Virus record (IMG/VR): IMGVR_UViG_3300036820_000003
Coordinates: 62,001-126,000 of that record
Length of the DNA: 64,000 bases
Source: a virus
Direction: 5' to 3' (one strand)
Shown here piece by piece: positions 10,536 through 32,957 of this stretch (the first letter of the stretch is position 1; the number at the start of each line of letters is the position of its first letter). Made by a program: the position numbers and the translations under genes. The notes beneath the pieces were generated by a model that saw only the letters and a program-made list of their open reading frames with translations, ran no database searches and was not told the DNA's origin.

Positions 10536-11510
10536 TTAGGAGGAGGCGCTGCCCTCGTTGATGCTGAAGGAGTTGCCGGTGATGGCGCTGGGCTCCATCG
10601 TGATCTGGCTCGCTCCGTTGATGGTGTTCGCCTGGACGAGCAGCTCGCCGCCGATCAGCCGATTACGGATGCTGCCGTTGTAGTTGTCAAAGGTCGCGTT
10701 GCTGAACGTGACCAGGGGGAGGTCTGCGGGTGCGGTCAGATTGGGCGCGTTGGTGTTGTCCGCCCCGATGGCCGCCTCGAAGAAGTTCTCGGCGTTGACC
10801 CGCTCGGTGTACTGCAACTCCTTGACGAAAGTGCCCGAGGTGTTGTAGATGTCCACCGTGTACTGGATGAAGTGACGCTTCCCGGCGGGGGAGTAGTACG
10901 CGTCGAGAGTTACGGTGTCCCCCACGACGAGCGAGGTCTCGTCGACCGACGGCTGGACCTGATTGCCGGTGAACACGTAAGTGTCCGGGTCGCTGCCGGT
11001 GGCGATGCTGTTGACCCCCGTGGCGGAAGCGCCCAGTTCAGCGCCCGCCAGCTGAACGGCGGAGCCGGAGCGCAGGTTCGTCGAGCCCGGGTCGGTGACG
11101 ATGACGCCATCCTGACTGCAAGGGTCGCTGCCGGTGGCGTTCTCAGTCAGATCGCCGTATGCGCCCAGCACCTCGAACTGACCGCCCAGGAACGTGACGC
11201 CGAGCTGCGCGGCCACGTTGTCGTCGTCGTCGCACAGCTCGACGCCGGTCGCGCCGGGATAGCTGCTGTCCAGGGCGTTGTTCAGATGCATCATCGCGGC
11301 AGTGATCTTGAATGTGGCGTGTGCGTCCCTGAGGTGCCAGTTGTCCCAGTGCTCCACGTACAGGCCGGCCTCACCGGTGACGTTGCTGCTAGGACCGACG
11401 ACGGGAGCCGCGCTGGCCGCCGGAGCGAGGAAAGCCGAACCGCCGAGAGCCGCGACTGCGACGCCGGAGGCGATCAGCCTTGAGCGCCTGTTGTTGTACT
11501 TGCTGGACAC
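10536..11510 (-). CDS. Secreted beta-rich protein with Sec signal peptide
   Basis: 324 aa. GTG at 11510 follows GGAAGGAC. The N-terminus is a Sec signal: basic KYNNRRSR, a hydrophobic core (LIASGVAVAALGGSAFL) and a signal-peptidase-I-like site PAASAA-AP near residue 35. The mature part is acidic, Asn/Thr/Gly-rich and beta-like, without recognised domain or anchor. It is a self-contained unit: a strong hairpin lies upstream (11575-11611) and two downstream. This is how morons are arranged. It may be released by infected cells or act at the host surface (inference). Confidence 0.75.
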   Translation of the reverse strand: MSSKYNNRRSRLIASGVAVAALGGSAFLAPAASAAPVVGPSSNVTGEAGLYVEHWDNWHLRDAHATFKITAAMMHLNNALDSSYPGATGVELCDDDDNVAAQLGVTFLGGQFEVLGAYGDLTENATGSDPCSQDGVIVTDPGSTNLRSGSAVQLAGAELGASATGVNSIATGSDPDTYVFTGNQVQPSVDETSLVVGDTVTLDAYYSPAGKRHFIQYTVDIYNTSGTFVKELQYTERVNAENFFEAAIGADNTNAPNLTAPADLPLVTFSNATFDNYNGSIRNRLIGGELLVQANTINGASQITMEPSAITGNSFSINEGSASS

Positions 11511-11532
11511 GGATGTCCTTCCTACGTTGGAA

Positions 11533-11552
11533 GGGCTTGCGGCCGCAAGCCC
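11533..11552. repeat. 20-bp perfect palindrome in the secreted-protein leader
   Basis: GGGCTTGCGG followed by CCGCAAGCCC, no spacer. It lies 23 bp upstream of the GTG start, just before the GGAAGGAC ribosome site. In RNA it would form a leader hairpin; in DNA it could be an operator. Confidence 0.6.
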
Positions 11553-11574
11553 ATGCGTAAAACCTACAGCATAC

Positions 11575-11611
11575 GACCGCGCGCCGCAACCTTTTGATGC
11601 GGTGCGCGGTC
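11575..11611 (-). terminator. Terminator after the VWA gene
   Basis: 13-bp arms (11575-11587 and 11599-11611) with one mismatch and a loop containing AAAAGG start 6 bp after the VWA stop codon. A TTTT follows about 20 nt further on the minus strand. It separates the RiPP/VWA transcription unit from the secreted protein. Confidence 0.7.
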
Positions 11612-11617
11612 AGTCGG

Positions 11618-12397
11618 CTATGCCTGAGTGGGAACCACCGCGAGCGCCATGTCCTCGGCTACCTCACGGTAGTTGGACACCCGGTCGAAGTAGTAGGCGT
11701 GAATCCAGGAGTGAGTCTTGGCGATTTCGACGTACTGGCTGTACGCCTCCTTGCCGGTGCCGTCGCCCAGGATGCCGACGGCCCACACCTCATCCCACTC
11801 GCCGTGGGAGCCGAGACCGTTCTTGAGCGTCGCCTGGGCGAGATACGCCTGGAATGCCTGCGCGTCGGCTAGCGCGCCGTCGGACAGGAGGATCCGAGCG
11901 CGAACCGGACGCTCGGCACGATGGGTGCTCCCGAACTCCGACATGTAGTGCGCGTCGCCGGCGCGGATAGCCGCCATGATCTCGGTTCCGCCCTGCGGCT
12001 TGCCGTCCTTGAAGTACTTAGCGACGAACGCCTGCATCTTCTCGTCGAAGTTGGAGGAGTTCAGATCGCCGTCGTCGTCCCCCTCCCCGATAGGGCAGAA
12101 GATGTTGCTGAACGGGTAGGTGTAGACTCCGCCCTTGTCGTCGTCGCCGTCGGACTGCTCGGCGGCAGCCTGGCTGTCCAGCTGCTCGAAGGGAATGATG
12201 ATCTCTCGCAGCGCCGCCACCTGCACATCGTAGGTGTTGACCGAGGAGTCGCTGGCCCAGGGCCAGCCTTCGGACTCCGACACGTCGAAGTAGATCTCCG
12301 GCTCTACCTCCCGAGGTCCGGTGAGCAGCGGTACGATGCGCTCGCGCGGAGTGCGATCCGGCCCGCCGGTCGGTGTTTCCGTTCTGGTGATTAGCAC
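11618..12397 (-). CDS. VWA-domain (MIDAS) protein
   Basis: 259 aa from GTG 12397 (GGAAGGAAGAGC site). It has the metal-ion-dependent adhesion site of von Willebrand A domains: DVSES (residues 38-42, DxSxS), a Thr in GGTEI (about 138) and an Asp in LLSDGAL (about 171). The order and the acidic insert resemble TerY-like cytosolic VWA proteins. No signal peptide. It is the gene after the FxsB-like maturase; VWA proteins recur in predicted actinobacterial conflict systems that also use Fxs RiPPs, so a shared system is plausible but not shown. Confidence 0.75.
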   Translation of the reverse strand: MLITRTETPTGGPDRTPRERIVPLLTGPREVEPEIYFDVSESEGWPWASDSSVNTYDVQVAALREIIIPFEQLDSQAAAEQSDGDDDKGGVYTYPFSNIFCPIGEGDDDGDLNSSNFDEKMQAFVAKYFKDGKPQGGTEIMAAIRAGDAHYMSEFGSTHRAERPVRARILLSDGALADAQAFQAYLAQATLKNGLGSHGEWDEVWAVGILGDGTGKEAYSQYVEIAKTHSWIHAYYFDRVSNYREVAEDMALAVVPTQA

Positions 12398-12479
12398 GCT
12401 CTTCCTTCCGTAAACCCTCTGTGTGGGGGCGTGTGCGTAAACAGCCTACAGCCGCCGACTTCGCGATGCAAGGGGCAGG

Positions 12480-13703
12480 CTAAGGGAGCGACGGCAGCGT
12501 GACGCCCGCCTCCTGCAGACGGGTTTTGATGTGATTGATCAGATGATACAGATCCCTGCAGTAAACGGACGGATTGTCGAATGATCCGACTCCGTTCTCG
12601 GTCGTCATGTAGCGATTCGGATAGTAGCCTCCTCCGCACACGTCGAAGACGGGACAAGTCTGGCAGACGGCTGACGGAGCGGGAGGCGTGTACCCCGGAT
12701 GGAGGGCTATCTGGTCAAGGGTGGAGGTTCGAACTGAGAGACCTGTGGCGGAGCCTCCGTCCGCTGTGGAGCGGAGAGCGTCCAGCAACTCGGCGGAGCC
12801 GTCGGCGTTCACCGCGAGGGAACGAGATCGAGGCGGAGGGCCGATGAAGCCGGCGCGCACATCGCGTCCCAGCAGACGACTGATGATGATGCGGAAGAGG
12901 CGGATCTGAGGGGCTCCCGGATCCAGGTACCAGGCGTCGAAAATATTTTCGAGCCAATCAGACGTCCCTGCGGCAGGAGGGCGATCCCATGTCTTCAGGC
13001 GAGGCAGCAGATCCAGCATCGGCGGGGACTGCGAGCGCAGGAACCTGTACGTCTCCACGGGATCGGAGTCGAGATTGACCACCGCCAGCAGACCCCCGTA
13101 ACTGGAAGTCCAGCGCGGGGAGCGCAGCAGGGCGAGGGCGTCCAGAACCTGAGACGTCGAGGAGGATCCGCTTTTGAAGGGACGATGCGAATTCTGGGCG
13201 TCGTTGCCGTCCAGGCTCACGCCGAAGCGAATCCCGGCTGGCGCGAGCGTCGTCAGCATGTCCTCGGTGAGGAGCGTCGCGTTGGTCTGCATGCTGAAGG
13301 TGAGAGTGGTTCCGGGGGGCGCCTCCGCTTTGAACGCGCTGACGATGTCGAGGATGCGAGCGGGACCCGCCAGCAGCGGCTCGCCTCCGTGCAGGATGAC
13401 GCGGAAGCGAGGGACGCTGTGGGAGCGCAGGTAGGTGCCCAGACGCGCCGCGAGGGTCAGGTAGATCGAGGGGGATATGAATCTGGGCTGGACGAGCCAG
13501 CTAGTATCCGCGAGGGAGTACATGTAGCAGTAATCGCAGTCCAGATTGCAGCGCGACGCTATCTTGAGCACAAGCTCGCTAAATATCGGAGTTGAAGGGG
13601 GTGTCGGGACTGATCTTCGACTGGAAGAGGGAATCAGGGGCTGAGTCGTTTTCGTCTCTGATCGCGTTGTTGAAGGGGTAGATATCCGGGCTGTCGCTTC
13701 CAC
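12480..13703 (-). CDS. FxsB-like radical SAM/SPASM peptide maturase
   Basis: 407 aa. The radical SAM triad CNLDCDYC is at residues 52-59, followed by the family phrase ADTSWLVQPR, HGGEPLLAG, QTNATLL, GVSLDG, and PPMLDLL. The C-terminus has SPASM-type cysteines (CQTCPVFDVCGGGYY, then PSVYCRDLYHLI). This layout is that of FxsB enzymes, which crosslink Phe side chains in FxSxx-COOH peptides to form cyclophanes. The GTG at 13703 has a strong GGAGGAG site but gives a Thr/Pro/Ser-rich N-terminus overlapping the precursor gene by 125 bp; a start at GTG 13571, coupled to the precursor stop, is the alternative. Partner: the 57-aa peptide at 13579-13752. Confidence 0.88.
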   Translation of the reverse strand: MEATARISTPSTTRSETKTTQPLIPSSSRRSVPTPPSTPIFSELVLKIASRCNLDCDYCYMYSLADTSWLVQPRFISPSIYLTLAARLGTYLRSHSVPRFRVILHGGEPLLAGPARILDIVSAFKAEAPPGTTLTFSMQTNATLLTEDMLTTLAPAGIRFGVSLDGNDAQNSHRPFKSGSSSTSQVLDALALLRSPRWTSSYGGLLAVVNLDSDPVETYRFLRSQSPPMLDLLPRLKTWDRPPAAGTSDWLENIFDAWYLDPGAPQIRLFRIIISRLLGRDVRAGFIGPPPRSRSLAVNADGSAELLDALRSTADGGSATGLSVRTSTLDQIALHPGYTPPAPSAVCQTCPVFDVCGGGYYPNRYMTTENGVGSFDNPSVYCRDLYHLINHIKTRLQEAGVTLPSLP

Positions 13704-13752
13704 AAGAGGTCTCCTCCAGGATGACGGCGAGGGGGGTGATGGCGATGGGCAT
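13579..13752 (-). CDS. RiPP precursor, FxSxx-COOH type, with three repeats
   Basis: 57 aa, ATG at 13752, GAAAGG site 10 nt upstream. Leader-like N-terminus MPIAITPLAVILEETSCGS. Then three repeats: SPD-IYPFNNAI (21-31), APD-SLFQSKI (38-47), SPD-TPFNSDI (48-57). The peptide ends exactly in F-N-S-D-I, the FxSxx-COOH signature of FxsA substrates of FxsB-type radical SAM enzymes. Usual FxsA peptides have one C-terminal site; here the motif recurs, suggesting up to three crosslinks (inference). It lies 24 bp after the phosphoesterase stop and overlaps the maturase gene. The repeats are in this frame only, which supports genuine coding. Confidence 0.85.
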   Translation of the reverse strand: MPIAITPLAVILEETSCGSDSPDIYPFNNAIRDENDSAPDSLFQSKISPDTPFNSDI

Positions 13753-13776
13753 GAGACGGCTGCCTTTCGTTGCGGG

Positions 13777-14580
13777 CTATCTGAGGGTGCGGGTGTCGAT
13801 GAGGCGGATGTTGGAGTCGTTGCCGTCGTAGTGCAGGCCGGTCACCAGGACGGGAGGGGCGTTGACCAGAGCGCGCTCGTGCAGCGTCTCGTGGAAGAGA
13901 TGATAGTGCCCGTGGAACACCCGGGTGACTTTGGTTCTGATGGCGATGTCCTGCAGGAGCCGGGAGTGCTGACGCGCGATGTGAATCATCGGCTTCCAGG
14001 ACTCGTGCGGGCGCGGGAGCGACGGGACCCAGCAGTCCGGCACGTCATGCGAGAGCAGCACGTCGGCCGGTCCGTCGGCGATGATTGAGTCGGCCTGCTC
14101 GCGGGTGATCTGCTCGTCCGGCCACCAGTCCACCCCCTCGGTTCGAGAGTGACGATCGACGCTGACCGCGCCTCCGACCGCGAGCCAGGTCTTCGAATTC
14201 CAGTTCCAACGAGTGCCGCGAGGGAGATAGCTGATCGCTTGGAATCCGCGCAGTCGCAGCGGGTAGTCGTGAGGCTGCTCGTAAGCTGCGAGCAGCTCTT
14301 GGATTTCGGGCCACCACTCGTGATTCCCGTCGATCCACCACAGCTCCATCCCGAGTTCGACCAGAGCGTTGTCGAGCTGCTGGATGGGCATGAGCCCGGC
14401 GGTCCAAGCGGCGGGCTCCATCAGCTTGAATCCGAAGTCGCCCAGCTGGATGACGATCTTCCGAGTCTCCCCGGCCTGGGCGAACTGGCCGTCGAGAGCC
14501 TCCAGGGCGTGCAGGGTCCACTTCAGATTCCCGTGCACGTCGCCGAGGAGTCCCACGAACTCGGGATCCTTGTCTTCCAT
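13777..14580 (-). CDS. Calcineurin-like metallophosphoesterase
   Basis: 267 aa; ATG at 14580 with tandem GGAAGGACGGAAGGAC. All metal-binding blocks are present: GDVHGN near the N-terminus, GDFG, DGNHEWW, LLSHD and HGHYH. These coordinate two metal ions for phosphomono- or diester hydrolysis. It is upstream of the RiPP precursor in the same operon. Phage members of this superfamily can act on DNA ends, cyclic nucleotides or caps; substrate unknown here. Confidence 0.85.
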   Translation of the reverse strand: MEDKDPEFVGLLGDVHGNLKWTLHALEALDGQFAQAGETRKIVIQLGDFGFKLMEPAAWTAGLMPIQQLDNALVELGMELWWIDGNHEWWPEIQELLAAYEQPHDYPLRLRGFQAISYLPRGTRWNWNSKTWLAVGGAVSVDRHSRTEGVDWWPDEQITREQADSIIADGPADVLLSHDVPDCWVPSLPRPHESWKPMIHIARQHSRLLQDIAIRTKVTRVFHGHYHLFHETLHERALVNAPPVLVTGLHYDGNDSNIRLIDTRTLR

Positions 14581-14602
14581 TCGTCCTTCCGTCCTTCCGT
14601 GG

Positions 14603-14629
14603 GAGGGGGCGGGCTGCGCCCGCCCCCTC
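14603..14629 (-). promoter_or_regulatory. Leader hairpin of the phosphoesterase gene
   Basis: Perfect 12-bp arms (GAGGGGGCGGGC and GCCCGCCCCCTC) with a 3-nt loop lie between the first and second operon genes, 22 bp before the phosphoesterase start. It is followed (upstream on the minus strand) by a TATAGT box and by 20 bp of alternating purine-pyrimidine (14640-14659). It may be an attenuator that sets the ratio of first to later genes. Confidence 0.5.
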
Positions 14630-14664
14630 ACTATATACCCGCGTGCGCGCGTGCGCGCGGGGGA

Positions 14665-15387
14665 TCAGGCGTCGGAGTCGGAGCCGGGAATCAGCCTCGA
14701 GCGCAGGGTGCGCGGGATGCTCGGGGTGACCTTGACGGACGCGATGGTCGCGCCGTGCTCCAGACGCAGACGTGCGACGGCCGTGGCGACGGCCGCCGCA
14801 GCTCGCTCCTTGGCGACCTGCTCGCGCTGGGCTTGGCCGTAGTCGGACGGGAAGGCCGTCAGCGGCACGTCAAGCTCATGAGTCGTGATGACCCGGACGC
14901 GCATGACGGCGAGGGGAGCGGAGGGGGCTGACGAGGCGGATTCAGGCTTCAGGATGCTGATCAGTTCCTTGCGCAGGTGAGCGGGAATCTCGTAATCGTC
15001 GATCCTCTCGCTGCTCAGATAGCCGATCATGCCGCTCCGCCAGGCCTCCCCCTGCGCGCGGAAGGCGCTGAGCCGGGTCTCCAGGACGGCGGACGTGTCA
15101 TCCGCTCCGGCGGGGGGCAGGGGGACGTCGTAGACTGCCTGCTGACGGATGTGCTCCTCATCGAACTGGCTGTTGCGTCCCGGGATGCGCGGGACGCCGC
15201 GCGCTCGCAGCCAGTCGTTGGTGCCTTCGTGACACGGACCCGGGCCGCCGAAGTACACGCGCATCTTGTGCGCGTAGCGCGCCACCTCCACTCTCCAGGT
15301 GATCTGCCGGACGCGCTCCGCGTCGAGGGCGGACTGCAGCTCCTCCTGACGGGAAGGGCGGGGCGGGGATTCAATTGTCTCGGTCAT
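14665..15387 (-). CDS. First gene of the leftward operon, unknown function
   Basis: 240 aa; ATG at 15387 (MTETIESPPRPSRQEELQSA) after GGAAGGAACGCA. A helical charged N-terminal region is followed by ARYAHKMRVYFGGPGPCHEG and a C-terminal beta/alpha part with a long Ala-rich helix (VAKERAAAAVATAVARLRLE). No domain recognised. It is the promoter-proximal gene, so it is likely expressed early. Confidence 0.7.
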   Translation of the reverse strand: MTETIESPPRPSRQEELQSALDAERVRQITWRVEVARYAHKMRVYFGGPGPCHEGTNDWLRARGVPRIPGRNSQFDEEHIRQQAVYDVPLPPAGADDTSAVLETRLSAFRAQGEAWRSGMIGYLSSERIDDYEIPAHLRKELISILKPESASSAPSAPLAVMRVRVITTHELDVPLTAFPSDYGQAQREQVAKERAAAAVATAVARLRLEHGATIASVKVTPSIPRTLRSRLIPGSDSDA

Positions 15388-15424
15388 TGCGTTCCTTCCG
15401 GGTGCTTGCGTTTGCCGCACTTTT

Positions 15425-15453
15425 AGTGTACTGGCGGGGAGGTGGCGCGTAAA
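15425..15453 (-). promoter_or_regulatory. Leftward promoter with overlapping GCGTAAACAGC operator
   Basis: On the minus strand TTTACG (15453-15448) and TACACT (15430-15425) are 17 bp apart; transcription would start near 15418, about 30 nt before the first gene of the operon. The -35 hexamer lies inside the GCGTAAACAGC element at 15447-15457, so a protein bound there would block RNA polymerase. It is the only copy of the element with a good -10 at the right distance. Confidence 0.65.
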
Positions 15454-15472
15454 CAGCTTTGACGGGGTTGAG

Positions 15473-15502
15473 TTGCGGGGATGGGGTGCGCTGGTGTATG
15501 CT
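15473..15502 (+). promoter_or_regulatory. Rightward promoter for the tRNA region
   Basis: TTGCGG (15473-15478), 18-bp spacer, TATGCT (15497-15502). It is divergent from the leftward promoter 20 bp away and would transcribe the structured leader and the three tRNAs. Confidence 0.5.
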
Positions 15503-15601
15503 TTTAGTAGCAGGCGGGCGGGTTGAGGTTGCCCCCCACCTATGGTGACTTACCCGTGAGCGTGGTTAGGCGCTCCCGGCTGAGGACCGGTCCGTCTGCA
15601 G

Positions 15602-15643
15602 CTGACCGTCGTCGGTCTTCGGGGTTTTCCCGATGACGGTCAG
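15602..15643 (+). promoter_or_regulatory. Strong hairpin just upstream of the initiator tRNA
   Basis: CTGACCGTCGTCGG and CCGATGACGGTCAG pair with one G-U, closing a loop of about 14 nt, and end 5 bp before the tRNA. It could be a processing signal for tRNA maturation or part of a small RNA transcribed from the promoter at 15473. Confidence 0.5.
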
Positions 15644-15647
15644 TCGA

Positions 15648-15721
15648 CGCGGGGTGGTGCAGTTAGGTGGCACGCTGGGCTCATAATCCAGAGGTCGGAG
15701 GTTCAAATCCTTCCCCCGCAA
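15648..15721 (+). tRNA. Initiator tRNA-fMet (CAT)
   Basis: Acceptor CGCGGGG pairs with CCCCGC and leaves C1 opposite A72, the mismatch that marks bacterial initiator tRNA. The anticodon stem has G29-G30-G31 before the CTCATAA loop (partner strand TCCAG, one G-U), also typical of initiators. D-stem GTGC/GCAC and T-loop TTCAAAT are intact. The 3' end is A-CTA, so CCA must be added. It is very similar to the Escherichia coli initiator. Phages more often carry elongator tRNAs. Confidence 0.9.
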
Positions 15722-19927: not shown

Positions 19928-20641
19928 GTGACGGATGACAAGATTGTCTCGGTTCCGGTCGGGGAACTCAAGTTCTGGCCGGGGAATCCTCGAGTGGGTG
20001 ACCTGGACGCGATCCGGGAGTCGATTGAGGCGCACGGGGTGTACAAGCCTCTGCTGGTGCATCGAGGGACCGGACGAGTCATGGTCGGAAACAATACCCT
20101 GAAGGCCGCCGTGGAACTGGGGATGGAGCGAGTCCCGGTGGTGTACAAGGACGTCGACGATGATGTGGCGCGTCGCATCATGCTGGTCGACAATCGGACG
20201 TCGGATCGCTCGGACTACGACGAGGAACTGCTGCGAGCGGCGCTGCTGGCGGTGGCCGACGATTTCTCCGGGACGGGTTATCACGACGACGACGAGGACG
20301 TCGCGGCGCTGCTGGCCATTGTGATGGCGGCGGACGAGTACAGCTTCGCGGGAGGGGCTGACGAGGAGGAAGTGCTGCTCCTCGACGAGGTGCGAACCGG
20401 AGCTGACTGGGCCGAGCTGCCCCAGCAGGAGGCCGCTCGGGCGGAACGGCAGGCTCAGCAGACTCCCTCGGCCGTCAAGGGGCTGCGCGAGATCATGCTG
20501 GTGTATCCGGTGGACGAGCATCGCGAGATGATTTCCGTGTTGGAAGGGCTCAAGCGGGTGTGGGGGGATCTGCGATATCCGCAGATTGTGGCGCGGGCTC
20601 TGCGGGAGGCGGCCGAGCGCGGCGGCGTGGTAGGCTTGTAA
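19928..20641 (+). CDS. ParB/Spo0J-like domain protein
   Basis: 237 aa. N-terminal ParBc-type domain: VSVPVGELKFWPGNPRVGD, AIRESIEAHGVYKPLLV, and the helix GNNTLKAAVELGMERVPVVY in place of the usual GNHR. The C-terminal half is acidic and then helical. Leaderless GTG start. ParB-like proteins are recurrent partners in predicted phage base-modification clusters, where they may act as nucleotide-using or DNA-tethering factors. Confidence 0.8.
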   Translation: MTDDKIVSVPVGELKFWPGNPRVGDLDAIRESIEAHGVYKPLLVHRGTGRVMVGNNTLKAAVELGMERVPVVYKDVDDDVARRIMLVDNRTSDRSDYDEELLRAALLAVADDFSGTGYHDDDEDVAALLAIVMAADEYSFAGGADEEEVLLLDEVRTGADWAELPQQEAARAERQAQQTPSAVKGLREIMLVYPVDEHREMISVLEGLKRVWGDLRYPQIVARALREAAERGGVVGL

Positions 20642-20642
20642 G

Positions 20643-21566
20643 GTGCAAGCTACGGTGCCTGACGACAGGCTGATGGCGGATTATTTTTCGTTCCATCGGA
20701 TTCAGATTGCGAATAGGGACGTCGATCCCGTTTACCCCGTCTTGAAGGCGGTGGGGGACAGGCTGTCGTTGAGCACCGAGGATCGCCTGCGTCTGGTATT
20801 CCTGCATGTGGCCTACTACGACATCGGGTCCGCGCTGACGGCGTTCGAGATAACGGGGGACGTGCACTACTGGTTCAAGTGCACCGAGACTAAACTGCCG
20901 TGCGGAACGGAACGTCGTAGGCATCGCATGGGCGACAACCTGCGCAATCACCTAGCATCTTTGCAGACTAGGGCGTTCGGCTGGCAAGGACTGGAACCGT
21001 GGCTCACGCACGGTCTGGACGATGACGCCCGAGGTAATTGGAAAACGGTGTCAGAGCGACTCATGCAGGTGGACGGAAACGGTCGCTGGGCGGCATTCAA
21101 GACCTGCGAGATGCTCAGGGAAGTGTGCGGGCTGCCGTTGGAGGCCCCGGACATGGGACACGCGAACAGTTCGGGTCCTCGCAAGGGACTGGGGTTGCTG
21201 TTTGCGGAGGCGCGAGTGGCGGGGAACTCGGCTGAGGTGATAGCGGGATTGGATAGGCTGTCGGTTAGGCTGGTCGAGGAGCTGCGGGGGGCCGGGGCCG
21301 AGGCGTCGCTTGCGACCGCGGAGACGACGCTGTGCGACTTTCACAGTATGTGGAATGGCCGGTACTATCCGGGGCTTGATATCGATGTGATGCACGAGCA
21401 GATCGCGATGTCCCCGATGAGCCCGGAGATGCGACGTGAGGCCTATCTGGCGCGCGAGGCGGCGCTGCCCCTGGCTTACCTCGGTGAAGAGGGCGGCTGG
21501 CAGGGCGTCGACGTCAAGCGGAAGCGGATTTACCGGATGACGGGGGAGATTGTCACTCGTGGCTGA
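20643..21566 (+). CDS. Alpha-glutamyl/putrescinyl thymine pyrophosphorylase-like transferase
   Basis: 307 aa. The order of conserved blocks (YFSFHRIQIANRDVDPVYPVL, shown in part as YFSFHRIQIANRDVD; FLHVAYYDIGSALTAF; GTERRRHRMG; GNGRWAAFKTCEML; DMGHANSSGPRKGLGLL) fits, from memory, the aGPT-pyrophosphorylase family described by Iyer and Aravind. These DNA-glycosylase-fold enzymes displace a (pyro)phosphate from phosphorylated 5-hydroxymethyl-dU in DNA with an amine. The kinase needed to make that substrate is encoded at 23743. A GTG start 6 nt after TAGGCT could be leaderless. Confidence 0.7.
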   Translation: MQATVPDDRLMADYFSFHRIQIANRDVDPVYPVLKAVGDRLSLSTEDRLRLVFLHVAYYDIGSALTAFEITGDVHYWFKCTETKLPCGTERRRHRMGDNLRNHLASLQTRAFGWQGLEPWLTHGLDDDARGNWKTVSERLMQVDGNGRWAAFKTCEMLREVCGLPLEAPDMGHANSSGPRKGLGLLFAEARVAGNSAEVIAGLDRLSVRLVEELRGAGAEASLATAETTLCDFHSMWNGRYYPGLDIDVMHEQIAMSPMSPEMRREAYLAREAALPLAYLGEEGGWQGVDVKRKRIYRMTGEIVTRG

Positions 21567-22434
21567 TGTGGGGGGCTGGACGTTCGGGGCGGAGCTGGAA
21601 TGGCCGGATGTGGACCGGCGGGCCGAGCTGGGGGGAGGCTGGGCGTGGTCGGTGACGGACTACACCGTCGTCAACTCGGACGGGACCGCCAACGATCCGC
21701 GCGGTGAGCTGAATCGCTGGGGCGGGGAGCTGAACACGCCGGTTTGCGGATCGGTCGAGGAGCTGGGCGAGCGCGCGGGAGAGATGCGGGCGCAGTTGAA
21801 GCCTGGTCACAACTACCGGTCGAATCTCCACATTCACGTGGCGGCTCCGGAATTTGCGGACGTCGAAAATCTGAAGAGAATCGCTGAATTCTCGCGTCGG
21901 GAGCTGCCAGGGGCGCTCAAGATGATGGACCCGCTGAACGGGCTTTTCTCGGGTCTGACGGACGAGGCGGAAGTGGCGGGGGCGCGGAAGCGAATGGCGC
22001 ACTCGGAGCGGAGTCGTCACTATTTTGTGTCGGATGCTCGGCACGCTCGTCGGATGGAGGCTCGGGGGATTGAGGAGATGCTGCGAGCCGAGGTTCCGAT
22101 GAGTCGCGAAGGGGCTCCGTGCTGGGCGCTGGCGTCGCGGGAAGCCGTCAATTTGCGTTCGATGCGGAAACACGGGACGATCGAGCTGCGCTGTTTCGCG
22201 GCGGACGGATCGGGCGAGAACGTGTGGGCGGCGGCGAGCTTCAGTCGGGACTGGCTGGCGACGGCGCTTGAGGGAGGCGAGGTGTTCGAGCTTCCCTACT
22301 TCTACTCGCTGCCGATTCAGCCTGCTTTCGAGCTGAAGCTCGAAAGAGGCTGGGAGTGGACGAACCTCAAGCACAATCGTCGGAACGTGGTGCGCGGACG
22401 GCTGGCTGAGATGAGGGGCCTGTGCGAATCGTAG
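21559..22434 (+). CDS. Amidoligase-like enzyme (COOH-NH2 ligase)
   Basis: 291 aa; GTG at 21559 overlaps the previous stop. It begins with TFGAELEWPDVD, the GxE(x)E motif of the glutamine-synthetase-like amidoligase family, then RSNLHIHVAAPEF and a late HGTIELRCFAADGS, which carries the second metal/nucleotide-binding Glu-Arg pair. Such enzymes join a carboxylate and an amine using ATP. In this cluster it could extend or cap an amino-acid adduct on thymine (inference). Confidence 0.7.
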   Translation: MADVGGWTFGAELEWPDVDRRAELGGGWAWSVTDYTVVNSDGTANDPRGELNRWGGELNTPVCGSVEELGERAGEMRAQLKPGHNYRSNLHIHVAAPEFADVENLKRIAEFSRRELPGALKMMDPLNGLFSGLTDEAEVAGARKRMAHSERSRHYFVSDARHARRMEARGIEEMLRAEVPMSREGAPCWALASREAVNLRSMRKHGTIELRCFAADGSGENVWAAASFSRDWLATALEGGEVFELPYFYSLPIQPAFELKLERGWEWTNLKHNRRNVVRGRLAEMRGLCES

Positions 22435-22862
22435 CCGTCTGCACGGGGAACGTCGCCCGGAGCCCCGCCCTGGAGTGCCTGCTGCAGGAAGGGCTGGCGG
22501 GGGTGGAAGTGCGCTCGGCGGGGGTGGGCGACAAGGCCGTCGCCGGGCTGCGGATGAAGCCCTACATGCGGATGATCCTGGGGAGAGAGGGTTTCGGCGA
22601 CTTCGCGGAATCCCATCGCTCGTTCGTGCTGCGAGGCGAGGAAGCGATCGCACCGGATCTTTTCGTCGCGGTGAGCCGAGTGCACGTGCGGAAGCTTGGC
22701 GGGATGTTTCCCGAGGTGCCGGTTCTCTTGTGCGATCCGATTATCCCGGATCCGGCTTTCGGCGGGCTGGATGCCTACGAGGAAGCGTGGAACTTGATTC
22801 AGACGGCCTCGGATGATATGATTCGCAGAATCGAATCCGAGGACTGGGGGAGCTGCGAGTGA
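22422..22862 (+). CDS. Low-molecular-weight phosphatase-fold protein
   Basis: 146 aa; GTG start overlapping the amidoligase end. CTGNVARSP at residues 7-15 is the C-x4-(x)-R-S phosphate loop of LMW phosphatases/arsenate reductases, and DPIIPDPAFGGLDAYEE supplies the general-acid Asp. It could remove a phosphate from a protein, sugar or modified nucleotide. Its place inside the cluster suggests a role in the DNA modification chemistry or in regenerating an intermediate. Confidence 0.75.
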   Translation: MRIVAVCTGNVARSPALECLLQEGLAGVEVRSAGVGDKAVAGLRMKPYMRMILGREGFGDFAESHRSFVLRGEEAIAPDLFVAVSRVHVRKLGGMFPEVPVLLCDPIIPDPAFGGLDAYEEAWNLIQTASDDMIRRIESEDWGSCE

Positions 22863-23701
22863 AGATTCTGGTGGTGGGGGCGGGAATCGCCGGGTCGTGC
22901 GTGGCTCGACTGGGGTCCGAGCGCGGTCACGAGATGAGGGTGATCGCGCGAGGCGATGAGCCGGATTCGCTCGCGGCGACGGCGGTGCTGCGTCGAGGTT
23001 ATCACTCAGGGGGGTCGCTTGAGTCCTGGGACTACGCGATCCAGTGCTATGAGCGCTGGGGCGTTCGAATGGCGAGAGGCGGGGCGGTTTCCAGCTATCG
23101 GAGACTGCTGGCGGAACCTCGTGCTGATGCGGACTGGACCCTGATTGATCCGGCTGCCCCCCTGGTGCAGGCCGATGTGAAAAGGGAAGTGGTGTCGGCG
23201 CATGGCGGCCGGGTGTGGTTCGGACCGGGGGCGGGGGAGGCGGGGGACGCCGTTGTGGTGGCCTGTGGCGCTCGCGGCGGGCTGTTGCGGCCGGCGGGCG
23301 CTGTTGGCGGCGCGATCGTTACCTATGGCGTTACGTGGGTCCACGCGCCGGAGGCTTTGAAGGAGCCCGAGGTTATGAGGGTGTATCAGTACGCCCCTTA
23401 TCGAACTCTGCTGGCGGGTGTGGCCGGAGGAAAGGCGCGCGTCGGTAGTTCCTCGGCTGCGGGAGAGGAAAAGGCGGTGGAGCAGGGGCGGAAGATGCTC
23501 CAGACCGCGTGGGATCTGGGCTGGCTGACGACTCTTGACGAGTGGGAAATGCGAGTGGGGGCGCGTCTGAAGAGTCAGGAAGTCTGGTGGCGCGAAGGCG
23601 ACGGTCACTGGGAAATCGGCGGATTTCATCGAACGGGGTACGCTTTGGCTCCCGGGGCCGCTCGCGATGTGCTGGACGACATCGAGAAGTCAGCTCTGTG
23701 A
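22859..23701 (+). CDS. FAD-dependent oxidoreductase, DAO type
   Basis: 280 aa; overlaps the previous gene by 4 bp (GTGA). Rossmann dinucleotide loop GAGIAGS near residue 7, then the conserved second strand and a C-terminal substrate region (VGARLKSQEVWW, HRTGYALAPGAARDVLDD). DAO-family flavoenzymes oxidise amines of amino acids. In thymidine hypermodification pathways a flavoenzyme works on an amino-acid adduct, which fits the neighbours. It is shorter than free-standing amino-acid oxidases. Confidence 0.75.
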   Translation: MKILVVGAGIAGSCVARLGSERGHEMRVIARGDEPDSLAATAVLRRGYHSGGSLESWDYAIQCYERWGVRMARGGAVSSYRRLLAEPRADADWTLIDPAAPLVQADVKREVVSAHGGRVWFGPGAGEAGDAVVVACGARGGLLRPAGAVGGAIVTYGVTWVHAPEALKEPEVMRVYQYAPYRTLLAGVAGGKARVGSSSAAGEEKAVEQGRKMLQTAWDLGWLTTLDEWEMRVGARLKSQEVWWREGDGHWEIGGFHRTGYALAPGAARDVLDDIEKSAL

Positions 23702-23707
23702 TTTGAT

Positions 23708-23736
23708 TTGACAGGCTCTTTTTTTTACGCTAGATT
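23708..23736 (+). promoter_or_regulatory. Leaderless promoter for kinase-dioxygenase unit
   Basis: TTGACA (23708-23713), 17 bp containing a T8 tract, TAGATT (23731-23736), 6 nt, ATG at 23743. No ribosome site. The T8 and adjacent sequence may also weaken upstream transcription. Confidence 0.8.
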
Positions 23737-23742
23737 TTGCTT

Positions 23743-24315
23743 ATGGATCTCGTTTATCTGGCCGGGGCTCCCGCCGTCGGCAAGTCGACTCTGATGGCCA
23801 GGCTGACTGAGGGCGCTGAGCGGGTGGCTCGAGCTGACGTGAAGCTGGTGCCCTACGACGAGCTGAGGGTTGCGGGCGAGGTTGTCGGGGCGGAGATCGG
23901 GAAGCGTCGGGTGAACTTCCCGGGGACTGATTCGCTTGCGATGAACGCTCTGCCGAACGTCGCTAAATGGCTCGACGCGAAGATGTTCGACGTGGTGTGC
24001 GCGGAGGGGGATCGTCTGACGCACGTGCGATTCTTTGGCTCGGCGGCGGACGCCGGGTACTCGGTGCACGTTTTCCTGCTGCGAGCGCCAATGTCGGTGC
24101 TGGATCGGCGATGCGAGGCGCGAGGGTCGAACCAGAGTCGGAGCTGGCGGCTCAGCCGGGTGACTCTGGGCGAGCGGGTGGCGGCCTGGGCCGAGGCCGA
24201 GGACAGGATCTCGATGCACTACCTCGATTCTCAGAGACCTGTCACGGAGCTGGCCGAGGAAGTGCGACGGGCTGTGCCCGCGATGGAGATTCTGCGTGAG
24301 CGGGTGGCTGGCTGA
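23743..24315 (+). CDS. P-loop kinase, 5-hydroxymethyl-dU DNA kinase-like
   Basis: 190 aa, ATG exactly where the leaderless transcript should begin. Walker A GAPAVGKST at residues 9-17; then EIGKRRVNFPGTDSLAMNAL, CAEGDRLTHVRFF, and SVLDRRCEARGSNQSRSW. The block order (R..F.GTD.L.M, EGDRL, RR..RG..Q..W) fits phage DNA kinases that phosphorylate hydroxymethyl-dU in DNA. It would supply the substrate of the transferase at 20643. The stop overlaps the dioxygenase start (TGATG). Confidence 0.75.
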   Translation: MDLVYLAGAPAVGKSTLMARLTEGAERVARADVKLVPYDELRVAGEVVGAEIGKRRVNFPGTDSLAMNALPNVAKWLDAKMFDVVCAEGDRLTHVRFFGSAADAGYSVHVFLLRAPMSVLDRRCEARGSNQSRSWRLSRVTLGERVAAWAEAEDRISMHYLDSQRPVTELAEEVRRAVPAMEILRERVAG

Positions 24316-25574
24316 TGGCTGCCGCCGCTGTTGTGAGGACCCCGGGAGTGCGACTGGGCTATCGAGTTGCGGACTCCATTATCGAGCGCGACATTGAAGG
24401 TCGGACCTTGGGGGAGGACGACTACGACTGGCTTCTCACGGGCGGACCGCTGATGGTCAGGAGTCCGGAGGGGGCTCCGGTGGCGTGCTATCTGCCAGGG
24501 GTTTTGAAGGGCGTCATGGCCGAGGTCGACGCTTACCGGCTGCTGCATCCCCTGCACACGATGATGACGAACAATCGAGGCAAGGCGTCGGGTACGCGAC
24601 GGATCGCCCGGGGGGACGGGGACGGGACGAGGAGCGACTCCGTCTCGATGTCGAGTCCCACTATCGGGTCGGCGGATCCAGGGTCGGTGTACCGCTACTG
24701 TCGCATGACGGAGTGGACCGGGGCGCATCTGCCGGAGTGGGAGGCGCTGGCTCCCCTGTTCCGGGTGATTGCGAGTCATCTTGAAGAGCGAGTTCCGGAG
24801 CGATACAACGCCCAGATGGAGTACGTCCGGAAGACGAATGAAGCGTGGGTGGTGCCGGGAACGCCGTTCACGACGATCACGGTGAATAACAGTTACTCCA
24901 CCGGGGTGCACAAGGATCAGGGCGATCTGGAGGCCGGGTTCTCGACGCTGGCGTGCGTGCGTCGCGGCGAGTACTCGGGCGGCGTGCTGGTCATGCCGCA
25001 GTATAGGTTCGGCGTGGACATGCAAGACGGTGATCTTTTGCTGATGGACGCGCACCAGTGGCACGGGAACACGCGAATGACGTGCGCCTGCGGCGAGCGG
25101 ATTTTCAATCGATTCTGCGGGGTATGCGGCGCGGAGCGGATTTCGCTGGTGTGCTACTATCGGACTCGGATGGCGGAATGCGGGAGCCCTGCGGACGAGC
25201 TGGAAAGAGCGCAGGTAAACACCGAGAAGCGATCCCAGCCGCGCGTCGGACAGGATATCATTGACGCTGCCGCGTCAGTGATGCCGATTCCGATTGCAAA
25301 TCCTGACCCCGCCCCTGATGACGGGGGGGCTTCAATTGCAACTGTGCCTGCGGCGCCGATTGTCGACGAACTTGAGGCTCCCGCCAAGAGGCGCGGTCGT
25401 CCCAAGAAGCAGGTCGGGGTGCTCGACGTTGAGGTTGAGGTTGAGGCCGCGAAGCCGGAACCTGTCGTCAAGCGTCGGGGTCGGCCGCGCAAGGTCGCTG
25501 AGCCTGATAAGATCGCAGTGGCCAAGGCCGATTTGATGAAGTTTGATCCCGTGACCGGTGAGCCTTTGGAGTGA
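24315..25574 (+). CDS. TET/JBP-like 2-oxoglutarate/Fe(II) DNA dioxygenase with AT-hooks
   Basis: 419 aa. Core: PFTTITVNNSY, VHKDQGDLEAGFSTLACV with the HxD iron ligands (about 198 and 200), GEYSGGVLVMPQYRFGVDM, DAHQWHGN with the distal His, a small Cys-rich insert (CACGERIFNRFCGVCG), and ISLVCYYRTRM with the 2-oxoglutarate Arg. This is the TET/JBP phage group. The tail has two AT-hooks (KRRGRPKK and KRRGRPRK) that should bind DNA. If it hydroxylates thymine it would make the hydroxymethyl-dU used by the kinase; 5-methylcytosine is the alternative substrate. Confidence 0.82.
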   Translation: MAAAAVVRTPGVRLGYRVADSIIERDIEGRTLGEDDYDWLLTGGPLMVRSPEGAPVACYLPGVLKGVMAEVDAYRLLHPLHTMMTNNRGKASGTRRIARGDGDGTRSDSVSMSSPTIGSADPGSVYRYCRMTEWTGAHLPEWEALAPLFRVIASHLEERVPERYNAQMEYVRKTNEAWVVPGTPFTTITVNNSYSTGVHKDQGDLEAGFSTLACVRRGEYSGGVLVMPQYRFGVDMQDGDLLLMDAHQWHGNTRMTCACGERIFNRFCGVCGAERISLVCYYRTRMAECGSPADELERAQVNTEKRSQPRVGQDIIDAAASVMPIPIANPDPAPDDGGASIATVPAAPIVDELEAPAKRRGRPKKQVGVLDVEVEVEAAKPEPVVKRRGRPRKVAEPDKIAVAKADLMKFDPVTGEPLE

Positions 25575-28607: not shown

Positions 28608-31600
28608 ATGGCTGGACGTAATTCAACATTGATGGCGGCGAAGTACGTGCCGGGCGGGGCTCGTCCGACCGCCGCACCTCAGGGAGCCGGGGCTCCCTAC
28701 TACGGGATGCTAAGCCCCTTGGCAAATCAGCTGGCGAATGAGCGCGGGTATTGCCTCGGTCCAGACACGCAAGTGCTGTGCTCGGATTTCCAGTGGCGGC
28801 CGGTGATCAGTCTTGCTGAAGGTGACCAGATCATTGGGTTCGATGAATTCCCGGAGCCACACAGCAAGCGTAAGTTCCGTATGTCAACAGTACTCAGCTG
28901 CCCGATCGTGGAACTACCCTCCTACCGGATCACGTTCACTGATGGTCGGCAGGTCACGGCTTCAGCTGAGCACATGTGGCTGGATGGACGATGCAGTCGT
29001 TGGTTGAAGACGAAGAATCTACGTCCTGGTTACAGGATCATGCACCTAGGCACCCCCTGGAAGCAAGACAGGTCGTGGGGCGGAGGCTGGCTTGCAGGGG
29101 CATTTGATGGTGAGGCTAACTTTGCTACTCATTCTGAGAACAGCCATTGCGGTTGGCACATCCAGTTCTCTCAGAACGCTGGAAGTGTCCTCGATCTGGC
29201 AGAACGACTCCTCAAGGAACGCGGGTATGAGACTCGGGTTAAGGCTCCTCAAGATGGTCGAGCAGTTCACCGTCTACTCATTACCGGCGTAGAGGACTGC
29301 TTCCGATTCCTCGGTTCGTGTCAGCCGGTTCGACTGCTGGACAATTCGGCTGCGTGGATCGAAGGTCAGAGCGGCAAGAAGTCCCGTGGAACTGCACGCG
29401 GTCGGGTGTACAACGCTGTCGTAGAGAGCGTTGAGTACCTGGGTGAGCAGGACGTGGTAGCTATCTCCACGTCCACCCGGACGCTGTTCGCCGAAGGTCT
29501 GTACTCGCACAACTCGAACAGCTACGGCCCGTTTCTGCCGAGGCCCGCTCGTACTTTTACAGAGGGTGCGTTCGGGCCGTTCAGTCCGATCCTGCCGGTG
29601 CCGCTGGATGCTCCGGCTGTTGAAGACGGTCAGCCGGATCCTCGACTATGGGAGTACCCGGTCGGGTGGAACCTGCCGGTGGGGCAGCCGGGGACCGAGG
29701 GACTCAAGCTCGTCGACTTCGCTACTCTCAAGACGCTTAGTGACACTTATTCGGTCGCGCGTAGTTGCATCGACCGTCGCAAGTACGAGGTCTGCGGACT
29801 GGACTGGGATATCGTCCCCACGCACGAGGCTTCGAAGGCGTATCAAGGGGACAGGAAAGCGATGCGCGACTTCGGGGAACGAGTCGCCAAGGCTAAGCGA
29901 TTCTTTCGGCATCCCGATCCGGACTATTTTACTTTCTCGGACTTTCTATCGGCTATGCTGGAGGAAGTGTTCGTTTACGACGCTTTGGCAATCGTCATGC
30001 GACCCAAGTGGGGCAAGGGAGTCGGGGCGGGGCTACTGGGTTCCGACCTGGACTGCCTGGAGCTGATCTCGGGTCCGACGATCCGACCTCTGGTCGGGCT
30101 GCACGGAGAGGTGCCGCGTCCGCCTGCTCCCGCGTACCAGCAGTACCTGTACGGCGTTCCGCGCTCGGACTACATGACGATGATCACCCAGCGAGACATC
30201 GACGAGGCCGGAATCGGCGGGTCGGAGCTGCAGAACTTCCGCACCGACCAGCTTATGTACCTGCGCACGACGCCGCGACGGGAAACGCCCTACGGGTTCT
30301 CGCTTACCGAGAAGGCGATCATCCCCATCCTGACCGGACTGCAGAAGCAGGCCTTCCAGTATGACTACTTCCGGGAGGGGACCGTCCCGGCGGTCTACAT
30401 CTCACCCGGGGATGCTTCTATCACCCCGAATCAAATCCGGGAGCTGCAGGACGCCCTTAACGCGATCGCCGGGGACGTGGCGTTCCATCACAAGATCATC
30501 GTTTTGCCACCCGGTTCCAAGACCATGCCGCAGAGGGACGCTCAGCTGGCGGATCAGTTCGACGAGATCGTCATGACCGAGGTCGCGATGGTCTACGACG
30601 TGGACCCGATGAGCCTGGGAATCGTCCCGAAAGTCGCGACTTCGGTGTCGCCTTTCGCCGCGAAGGAGATGGCGCAGGCGTCGGCGTCGGTTCATCAGAG
30701 GACGTCGACTAAGCCTCTGTTGTCTTTTATCACCGACATCTTCAACAACATCCTGCATCGCGTGTGCGGTCAGGACGACATGAAGTTCACCTTCGAGGGG
30801 ATGTCGGAGACCTCGGACGCGGCTGCGACGACTGACCTGGTGGTCAAGCAGGTCCAGTACGGAATCCGGTCGGTCGACGAGGGTCGGGCCGAGCTGGAGC
30901 TGCCGCCGTGGAACATGCCCGAGACCTCGGGTCCTGTCGTGTTCACGCAGATGGGACCGGTCCCGTTCGAGATGGCACCGCAGCTGCTGATGCAACAGCA
31001 GCAGGGCGCGGGTGGGAGCGGAGGGGGAGCCAAGGCCGGGGGAGGGAATTCTTCCGGATCGGGGAAGCGAACGCGGGCTACTTCGACGACTGGTCGCGGT
31101 GATCAGTACGGCGGGCCGGGAGTTCCCCGGCACGGGAACCTGCCGGCTCCTTCTTCGACTCGGATTTCTTCGGACGTTCCGCCGGAGCGGAAGAAGACCC
31201 CGGCTCACGACGCGGCCGAGGGGGCGATGTCGACCGGGAGTTCGAAGCCGGGGGGCGGCCGGGTCGGGGCCTCCAAGGCGGCGGCGGCCGAGCTGGAGGC
31301 GCTTGGTCGTCACTTGCGGAAGGGTCGGGACATTCGCACCTGGAAGGCGGTCAACGTTCCCGGGGCAATTGTCGAAGCGATAGCCGAGGACCTGCAAAAG
31401 GGCCTCTCGTTCGACGAGGCAGTCGGATCTATTCCCGTGTTCGGCGTGGAATGGGTGACCGGAGACACGCTCCCAAAAGCCCGAGGGGTCACTGAGTGGC
31501 CCGGCTGGAAGCACGATCTAGGGTTGGTCGCGGCTTACACCGACCTGCTGCGGAGGATGTTTTCCAAGGCTGACGGGCAAGCCGGGAAGATCCGTGGCGA

Positions 31601-32957
31601 GTACGCGCACTCGGTGGTGTCATACACGCCGGGCATGTTCGACGGGATGATTGCGGATCATCTGCAGGAAAAGGTGGCGGGAGCGCTTGAGCCGCTGGCG
31701 CGGGAGGCCTGGAAGCTCGGCTACGGGAGCGCGCTGGAGCTAATAGGCGACCGGTCGGTTAGCTTCGGGTCGAATCCGGATGCGTTCGTCGGGACGGAGG
31801 TGCGACATTGGGCCGAGACGATTGCGCGGACCGGTCTTAAGGACGCCGCGCGCCGGGCGGAGGTTATCGCCCGGACCGAGGTGGCTCGCGGAGTGAGCGC
31901 CGGAGCGATGCAGGCGTATGCGGATGCCGGGATTTCGTACAAGCACCTGCTCCTGGCTCCGGATGACGCCTGCGAGAAGTGCGTCGATGCTGATGAGGAA
32001 GTAATTCCCCTGCACGCTCCGTTCGGGACGGGGGATGTCGCTCCTCCGTTTCACCCGCAGTGTCGCTGCGGAGTGGCCCCGTCCGGAGTGGACGTGACGC
32101 CTCCGCAGGGGCACCTCGGGAAGTCGGAGTCAGAGAGGAAGCCCGACGTCGCTTTTCTTCTCATCCGCACTCGTAATTCCGAGGGGAAGCGTCGCTACCT
32201 GCTGCAGAAGCGAGGCGAGGAAGCCTCGCACCCTGGGACCTGGGGGCTGTTCGGCGGGAAGGGGCATCCGGGGGAGACCCCGTGGGAGACGGCTTGCCGG
32301 GAGGCGGGGGAGGAAACCGGGGGACTGCCGAAGGATCTTGTCCCTCGGGGCGTCATGTTCACGCCCGGTGACAAGCGAGACTGCTGGACCTACGTGTGCG
32401 ACGTGGCGGAGGAGTTCAGTCCGGGTGGCGGGGTCACCCCCTGGGAGTCGGCGAGCTGGGGCTGGTTCAGTCGGGACGACGTGTCGGGACTGGAGCTGCA
32501 TCCCAAATTCGCGGAAACGTGGGACGTGTACGTCGGGGAAGTGCTCGGCAAATCGAAGAAGAGGGTGCTGGTCTCCGGTCAGGAGATCTACCCGTCGGAC
32601 TCGGAGACCGGCGAAGACGATGAGTGGCCTGCGAGCGGCGGGGGCGGGGAGTACCCGCACTCGCACGACGTGGACGGGACTCCGGTGGCTCCGGGCGGGA
32701 AGCCCGGGTCGGAGCCTCCGCGCTGGGACGGTGATGAAGCTGAACCCTATGTGCAGATGCCGGGTGGTCCCGGAGGAGCAGCCGGGCGTGCCCCGGATTC
32801 GCCCGCCGGAGGCGGGAGTTGCGACTCGACGTGTGATGATCCCGGTCATGCTCACTCGACTCCGATTGACGGGAACGTTCCGGACGACGAGGATGACGCT
32901 CGTCAGCCGTTCGTGAGGGGGCGACCTCCGAATGCTATCGGAAAAGGCCGCTCGTGA
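28608..32957 (+). CDS. Portal-MuF-NUDIX fusion protein interrupted by an intein
   Basis: 1449 aa with strong GGAGGTGCGGG site. Parts: short N-extein (1-48); intein (49-302); portal (about 303-820, with RSCIDRRKYEVCGLDWDIVP, YGFSLTEKAIIPI, VYDVDPMSLGIVPK); a Gly/Gln/Ser-rich linker; a MuF-like minor head domain (RRAEVIARTEVARGVSAGAM, then CEKCVDADEEVIPLH, PPFHPQCRCG at about 1150); a NUDIX hydrolase (GGKGHPGETPWETACREAG, then EETG, about 1212-1236) with an intact Nudix box; and an acidic, His-containing tail. Splicing is needed for a working portal. MuF fused to portal is known; a catalytic NUDIX appended to it is unusual. Confidence 0.9.
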   Translation: MAGRNSTLMAAKYVPGGARPTAAPQGAGAPYYGMLSPLANQLANERGYCLGPDTQVLCSDFQWRPVISLAEGDQIIGFDEFPEPHSKRKFRMSTVLSCPIVELPSYRITFTDGRQVTASAEHMWLDGRCSRWLKTKNLRPGYRIMHLGTPWKQDRSWGGGWLAGAFDGEANFATHSENSHCGWHIQFSQNAGSVLDLAERLLKERGYETRVKAPQDGRAVHRLLITGVEDCFRFLGSCQPVRLLDNSAAWIEGQSGKKSRGTARGRVYNAVVESVEYLGEQDVVAISTSTRTLFAEGLYSHNSNSYGPFLPRPARTFTEGAFGPFSPILPVPLDAPAVEDGQPDPRLWEYPVGWNLPVGQPGTEGLKLVDFATLKTLSDTYSVARSCIDRRKYEVCGLDWDIVPTHEASKAYQGDRKAMRDFGERVAKAKRFFRHPDPDYFTFSDFLSAMLEEVFVYDALAIVMRPKWGKGVGAGLLGSDLDCLELISGPTIRPLVGLHGEVPRPPAPAYQQYLYGVPRSDYMTMITQRDIDEAGIGGSELQNFRTDQLMYLRTTPRRETPYGFSLTEKAIIPILTGLQKQAFQYDYFREGTVPAVYISPGDASITPNQIRELQDALNAIAGDVAFHHKIIVLPPGSKTMPQRDAQLADQFDEIVMTEVAMVYDVDPMSLGIVPKVATSVSPFAAKEMAQASASVHQRTSTKPLLSFITDIFNNILHRVCGQDDMKFTFEGMSETSDAAATTDLVVKQVQYGIRSVDEGRAELELPPWNMPETSGPVVFTQMGPVPFEMAPQLLMQQQQGAGGSGGGAKAGGGNSSGSGKRTRATSTTGRGDQYGGPGVPRHGNLPAPSSTRISSDVPPERKKTPAHDAAEGAMSTGSSKPGGGRVGASKAAAAELEALGRHLRKGRDIRTWKAVNVPGAIVEAIAEDLQKGLSFDEAVGSIPVFGVEWVTGDTLPKARGVTEWPGWKHDLGLVAAYTDLLRRMFSKADGQAGKIRGEYAHSVVSYTPGMFDGMIADHLQEKVAGALEPLAREAWKLGYGSALELIGDRSVSFGSNPDAFVGTEVRHWAETIARTGLKDAARRAEVIARTEVARGVSAGAMQAYADAGISYKHLLLAPDDACEKCVDADEEVIPLHAPFGTGDVAPPFHPQCRCGVAPSGVDVTPPQGHLGKSESERKPDVAFLLIRTRNSEGKRRYLLQKRGEEASHPGTWGLFGGKGHPGETPWETACREAGEETGGLPKDLVPRGVMFTPGDKRDCWTYVCDVAEEFSPGGGVTPWESASWGWFSRDDVSGLELHPKFAETWDVYVGEVLGKSKKRVLVSGQEIYPSDSETGEDDEWPASGGGGEYPHSHDVDGTPVAPGGKPGSEPPRWDGDEAEPYVQMPGGPGGAAGRAPDSPAGGGSCDSTCDDPGHAHSTPIDGNVPDDEDDARQPFVRGRPPNAIGKGRS
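28752..29513 (+). mobile_element. Intein in the portal gene (254 aa)
   Basis: Begins with Cys49 in CLGPDTQVLC and ends ...LYSHN followed by Ser, the canonical splice junctions. Hint blocks: PVISLAEGDQIIGFDE, the TxxH-like TASAEHMW, and AISTSTRTLFAEGLYSHN at the end. GWLAGAFDGEANF is a LAGLIDADG-type homing motif; I see only one clear copy, and 254 aa is short for a full homing intein, so the endonuclease may be degenerate or minimal. Codon use is less GC-rich than in the exteins, consistent with transfer. Confidence 0.9.

Follow-up and report, generated by a model that had tools for sequence, protein, structure and literature searches.

The VMAP ternary conflict systems of actinobacteria are linked to peptides ending in FxSxx and a radical SAM enzyme, and a toxin or signal function has been proposed for these peptides (PMC7159879). 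Two described enzymes bear on the chemistry that may be involved. MscB (IPR026335) joins C4 of a phenylalanine to the β-carbon of a serine (PMC11002830), and ChlB is called a "multiple cyclophane synthase" in a title within the reference list of PMC12636437; that article describes the native Chl enzyme as a radical SAM-HExxH fusion. Triceptide RiPP systems are known from bacteria; here we describe one in phages that yielded no integrase and whose enzymes form a phage-specific clade. Considered as a whole, with its role included, the gene pair is likely to represent a lineage of Fxs (triceptide) RiPP machinery that belongs to phages and makes a multi-cyclophane peptide.

The window, that is, the entire 64,000-nucleotide stretch analysed, comprises bases 62001–126000 of a 129,940-bp IMG/VR virus record that contains terminase, portal and head genes, the terminase and portal marking it as a tailed phage. 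Scans of the larger ORFs of the record gave no integrase among the matches listed (best 25 families each), so that lytic growth is likely, if not proven. Both GC content and the bacteria in which relatives of its FxsB occur suggest an actinobacterium as the host. Elsewhere on the plus strand, positions 19928–25574 encode an amino acid:DNA transferase (20643–21566), an FAD oxidoreductase (22859–23701), a Tet/JBP oxygenase (24315–25574) and a ParB-N protein; together with C5-methylase and Lar-like genes found at other places in the record, these probably constitute a DNA hypermodification pathway. The genes of interest lie on the minus strand in an apparent four-gene unit that begins with a gene of no assigned function (14665–15420), continues with a metallophosphoesterase gene (13777–14631) and ends with an fxsA-like precursor gene (57 aa, ATG start; 13579–13752) and an fxsB-like radical SAM/SPASM peptide maturase gene (407 aa from a GTG; 12480–13703). 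The metallophosphoesterase gene is directly upstream of the precursor gene, at a distance of 24 nt, and is kept without fxs in a syntenic relative. Upstream of the unit stands the 11-bp motif GCTGTTTACGC (15447–15457, minus strand), whose next copy is found only at 12435–12445. Between positions 2147 and 15457 of the window this promoter- or stoperator-like motif occurs 14 times if one mismatch is allowed, where 0.46 occurrences would be expected; the exact copies number nine, every one on the minus strand, and several stand just upstream of minus-strand genes. A simple scan returned no sigma-70 promoter, and no Rfam family was matched within 11400–15700.

The precursor frame reads MPIAITPLAVILEETSCGSDSPDIYPFNNAIRDENDSAPDSLFQSKISPDTPFNSDI. 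It contains the leader motif TPLAVIL (residues 6–12; 13717–13737, minus strand), common to the precursors of two related phages and many bacterial FxsA, and three core-like motifs on the same strand: FNNAI (residues 27–31; 13660–13674), FQSKI (residues 43–47; 13612–13626) and FNSDI (residues 53–57; 13582–13596), the last of which forms the C terminus and carries the FxSxx-COOH signature that the first-pass annotation had read there. The three-repeat architecture proposed in that annotation holds as to the number of motifs; they are unevenly spaced (F27, F43, F53), the first is FNN and not FxS, and the similarity of the repeats taken alone is weak evidence (p about 0.04). The peptide and enzyme frames overlap by 125 nt. 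GC content at codon positions 1, 2 and 3 of the 57-aa frame is 0.47, 0.43 and 0.79, and within the overlap third-position GC is 0.756 in this frame versus 0.439 in that of the enzyme, which indicates that the peptide frame carries the coding signal in the shared stretch. Among the 505 window ORFs of 30–150 aa, an FxSxx end is present in five, the leader pattern [ST][AP]Lxx[ILV][ILVAPT] in seven and three Fx[SN] motifs in two, and only the 57-aa ORF combines all three features. When its letters are shuffled, the same features arise in 0.8%, 0.9% and 0.7% of cases, respectively, and all together in 0/200,000. The precursor model TIGR04268 gave no match to the peptide at E up to 10; the same model barely exceeds its cut-off with a bacterial control (28.1 vs 28), and its lack of matches in 10 actinobacterial genomes carries no weight.

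For comparison we used 41 distinct bacterial precursors adjoining fxsB. A TPLxx[IVL] leader is present in 17 of them versus 15 of 1991 other ORFs of the same stretches (0.75%), an enrichment whose p-value is inflated by the relatedness of the 41 precursors to one another. A single Fx[SN] core-like motif is found in 37/41, which agrees with the earlier statement that FxsA peptides have one core, except that one bacterial precursor, the only clear double-core case in the set, contains two identical GNFNSFI cores. Because of this precursor and of the description of ChlB, by title, as a multiple cyclophane synthase, several cores in one peptide are not unprecedented. A second candidate double-core precursor was rejected as a seeming upstream extension of the frame, and at a further bacterial locus five successive single-core precursor genes precede fxsB.

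The enzyme matches the NCBIfam FxsB model (TIGR04269) with an E-value of 6e-95 and 318 bits, better than YhhB, XyeB or any other NCBIfam model but below the curated cut-off of 370. Of the two HMM families suggested at first for verification, that of the maturase gives a match and that of the precursor does not. The enzymes of the phage relatives score 310 and 337 bits. Seven cysteines, C18, C22, C25, C313, C316, C322 and C348, corresponding to the radical SAM CxxxCxxC motif and the SPASM domain, are invariant among 14 homologues, and the window enzyme keeps all of them. Its AlphaFold2 model (pLDDT 88.9) has as its best solved structural match ChlB bound to its leader (TM 0.90, about 35% identity), and sequence comparison likewise gives ChlB as the best-matching solved protein (E 1e-60). 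A maximum-likelihood tree groups the enzymes of the three large phages together (100/99) and all four viral enzymes in a wider clade (85/92); the viral clade is contained, with nearly all actinobacterial FxsB, in a node supported at 97/93, with the Chloroflexota and YhhB/XyeB-like sequences outside. The first-pass assignment of the overlapping radical SAM/SPASM enzyme to the FxsB type is borne out by this position, within and not outside the FxsB clade. Judged by sequence, the pair nests in that clade and would work like FxsA/FxsB; since the curated cut-offs are not reached, we regard it as a variant and not as a standard member. The first usable start of the enzyme is the GTG at 13703, 7 nt after a Shine-Dalgarno-like GGAGGAG (13711–13717, minus strand) that lies within the precursor coding sequence, and a start at the next in-frame GTG (13571) loses a conserved Glu. 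With the usable start, the frame that encodes about 40 of the enzyme's residues is devoid of coding signal, so that the N-terminal residues in the overlap are either overprinted or not translated.

The initial annotators knew of no phage with this pair, a view corrected by a profile scan of viral contigs. Two large contigs, L093 (101 kb) and L094 (132 kb), encode FxsB proteins 50% identical to that of the window, and belong to phages whose terminases are, respectively, 77% and 46% identical to the window phage's and whose portal proteins are also related. The L093 precursor (MSINTSL...FNS...FVS...TPLERIL...TFSAALPG) is multi-core and ends in FSAALPG. That of L094 (L094:1027-1386) consists of two tandem leader-core modules, NTPLGKI...YNSFSADI followed by GTPLGKI...SSFTSYNGFNNNR, and ends in FNNNR; the occurrence of TPLGKI twice in one precursor is an unusual RiPP design. 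A third, 17.8-kb viral contig, L247, encodes an FxsB 41% identical to that of the window, followed by a 34-aa peptide that contains SALDRIL and ends in FQAA. The architecture of the 57-aa frame recurs in the relatives, but the precursors of the nearest ones are much diverged. Phage cores vary widely, and FxSxx-COOH is not kept in any of these three precursors. No useful PDB match was obtained for the phage precursors, the similarity of the L247 peptide to EF-hand proteins looking like chance, and two additional viral contigs were set aside as their enzymes are more distant and YhhB/XyeB-like. None of the 50,697 phages in INPHARED encodes a close relative, that is, no cultured phage in that collection has the cassette, and no paper on a phage-borne cyclophane RiPP was found in the open-access literature searched. 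Only the precursor and the enzyme recur in the relatives, where the other neighbours seen in the window do not surround fxsB. Because the L093 cassette is far from the genes that adjoin the cassette in the window, the pair appears to behave as an accessory cassette travelling within this phage group. The comparison of portal genes revealed a separate feature: the window portal protein (28608–32957) has an insert of about 254 aa (residues about 48–302) that is missing in relatives, whose matches run over 1–49 and then from 303 onward. The insert starts with CLGPDTQVL, ends at SHN|S, includes a LAGLIDADG-like stretch and is probably an intein; similar gaps are seen in the terminase and portal of the L093 phage.

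Genes that accompany bacterial FxSxx modules were sought around the phage cassettes. The HExxH partner (TIGR04267) is missing from the records of the three large phages, the window's included, and from L247, all of which may be incomplete; the adjoining genes that were inspected included none recognisable as a transporter or peptidase, and neither an AP-ATPase, a MoxR nor any other linked conflict-system gene was recognised beside the window cassette. The gene adjoining fxsB (11618–12397) is vWA-like, with MIDAS-like residues (DxSxS, T, D) and no database family match. Bacterial FxSxx modules adjoin vWA proteins, and this gene was considered as a part of the Fxs module and rejected: copies 62–65% identical are present in five other viral contigs without fxs genes nearby, and its single-sequence model is too poor to judge by. 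A protein with a signal-peptide-like N terminus and no family matches is encoded at 10536–11510, and similar-looking secreted proteins precede fxs in L094.

We propose that the FxsB-like enzyme would recognise the TPLAVIL leader of the 57-aa peptide and, with SAM and [4Fe-4S] clusters, join a Phe ring carbon to the β-carbon of residue i+2, leader-guided Phe(i)-to-(i+2) C–C bond formation being the most likely chemistry. Up to three crosslinks could be introduced, F27–N29, F43–S45 and F53–S55, and the product would be a rigid multi-cyclophane peptide. The modified peptide would act inside the infected cell, the most likely location, since the searches gave neither an HExxH partner nor, among the neighbours inspected, a recognisable transporter or peptidase. 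During infection, the peptide is probably produced as a weapon or signal; as to its role, we tentatively favour takeover of the host or blocking of host defence, a possibility arrived at by elimination only.

A more specific variant of counter-defence is mimicry, whereby the peptide would imitate a host FxSxx peptide and jam a host Fxs/VMAP system through competition for the receptor or peptidase of that system. Apart from the known coupling of FxSxx peptides and radical SAM enzymes to VMAP systems in actinobacteria (PMC7159879), this idea draws on the FNSDI terminus, which ends exactly like the host cores FNSAL and FNSSI, and on what seem to be further protective genes of the phage (Tet/JBP, ADDT, C5-methylase and Lar-like genes). 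The lack of FxSxx-COOH in the other phage precursors, which terminate in FSAALPG, FNNNR and FQAA, speaks against a strict mimic and also weakens the notion of a decoy for host Fxs systems, raised in the first-pass annotation; we consider mimicry unlikely. The broader scenario, in which an apparently lytic actinophage lineage has long kept its own FxsB and multi-core precursors and multi-cyclophane peptides serve as RiPP counter-defence effectors that defeat or subvert host Fxs-type conflict systems, is similarly doubtful. Superinfection exclusion or inter-phage competition, with the modified peptide directed against a second phage or adjacent cells, is compatible with the compactness of the two-gene cassette and with its different locations in the genomes of related phages, as would be expected of accessory genes, but the cassette has no conserved immunity or export gene next to it and nothing specific favours this function, which makes it an improbable one as well.

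Far less probable is that the pair is a bacterial passenger, a recent capture of a host fxs operon without phage function. FxsB is common in some actinobacteria (71/399 genomes of one order), but the phage enzymes form a clade of their own on a long stem, are 50% identical to each other versus 29–44% to the bacterial copies, and show the branching order of the phage terminases, with no bacterial FxsB found inside the phage clade. It is just as hard to sustain that the 57-aa ORF arose by chance and that the enzyme has a different substrate. Although the frame has no HMM match and many overlapping frames in GC-rich DNA are spurious, its GC3 pattern, its leader and C-terminal motifs and its adjacency to fxsB all argue otherwise, as do the similar peptides that abut fxsB in three other viral contigs.

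Should the multi-cyclophane peptides indeed be produced in the course of infection, they would constitute ribosomal, enzyme-crosslinked phage effectors and would offer a direct route to the function of the widespread actinobacterial FxSxx peptides. The phage precursors hold several cores, and in one case even two leader-core modules, and the pairs provide compact one-enzyme, multi-core substrates for cyclophane chemistry.

Among known systems, ChlA/ChlB (PDB 9gm3, 9gmc) is the best solved match by both sequence and fold and, going by the title cited above, also forms several cyclophanes per precursor, whereas the phage enzyme corresponds to the radical SAM part alone, at about 35% identity, of what is natively, as PMC12636437 describes it, an HExxH fusion. 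With MscB the phage pair shares the predicted Phe(i)-to-Ser(i+2) crosslink; MscB is bacterial, and the likeness concerns the described chemistry. The VMAP-associated FxSxx modules (PMC7159879) likewise combine a peptide with a radical SAM/SPASM enzyme, but the phage cassette has no TIGR04267 peptidase match, AP-ATPase or MoxR, and its adjoining vWA-like gene occurs in other phages without fxs. Actinobacterial FxsA/FxsB (TIGR04268/TIGR04269) resembles the phage pair in the adjacency of precursor and enzyme, in the TPLxxI leader of many precursors, in FxSxx-COOH and in clade membership. The phage pair differs in an enzyme that scores under the cut-off, in a precursor that TIGR04268 does not match and that has three cores instead of one, and in the lack of a detected HExxH partner or recognised linked conflict genes.
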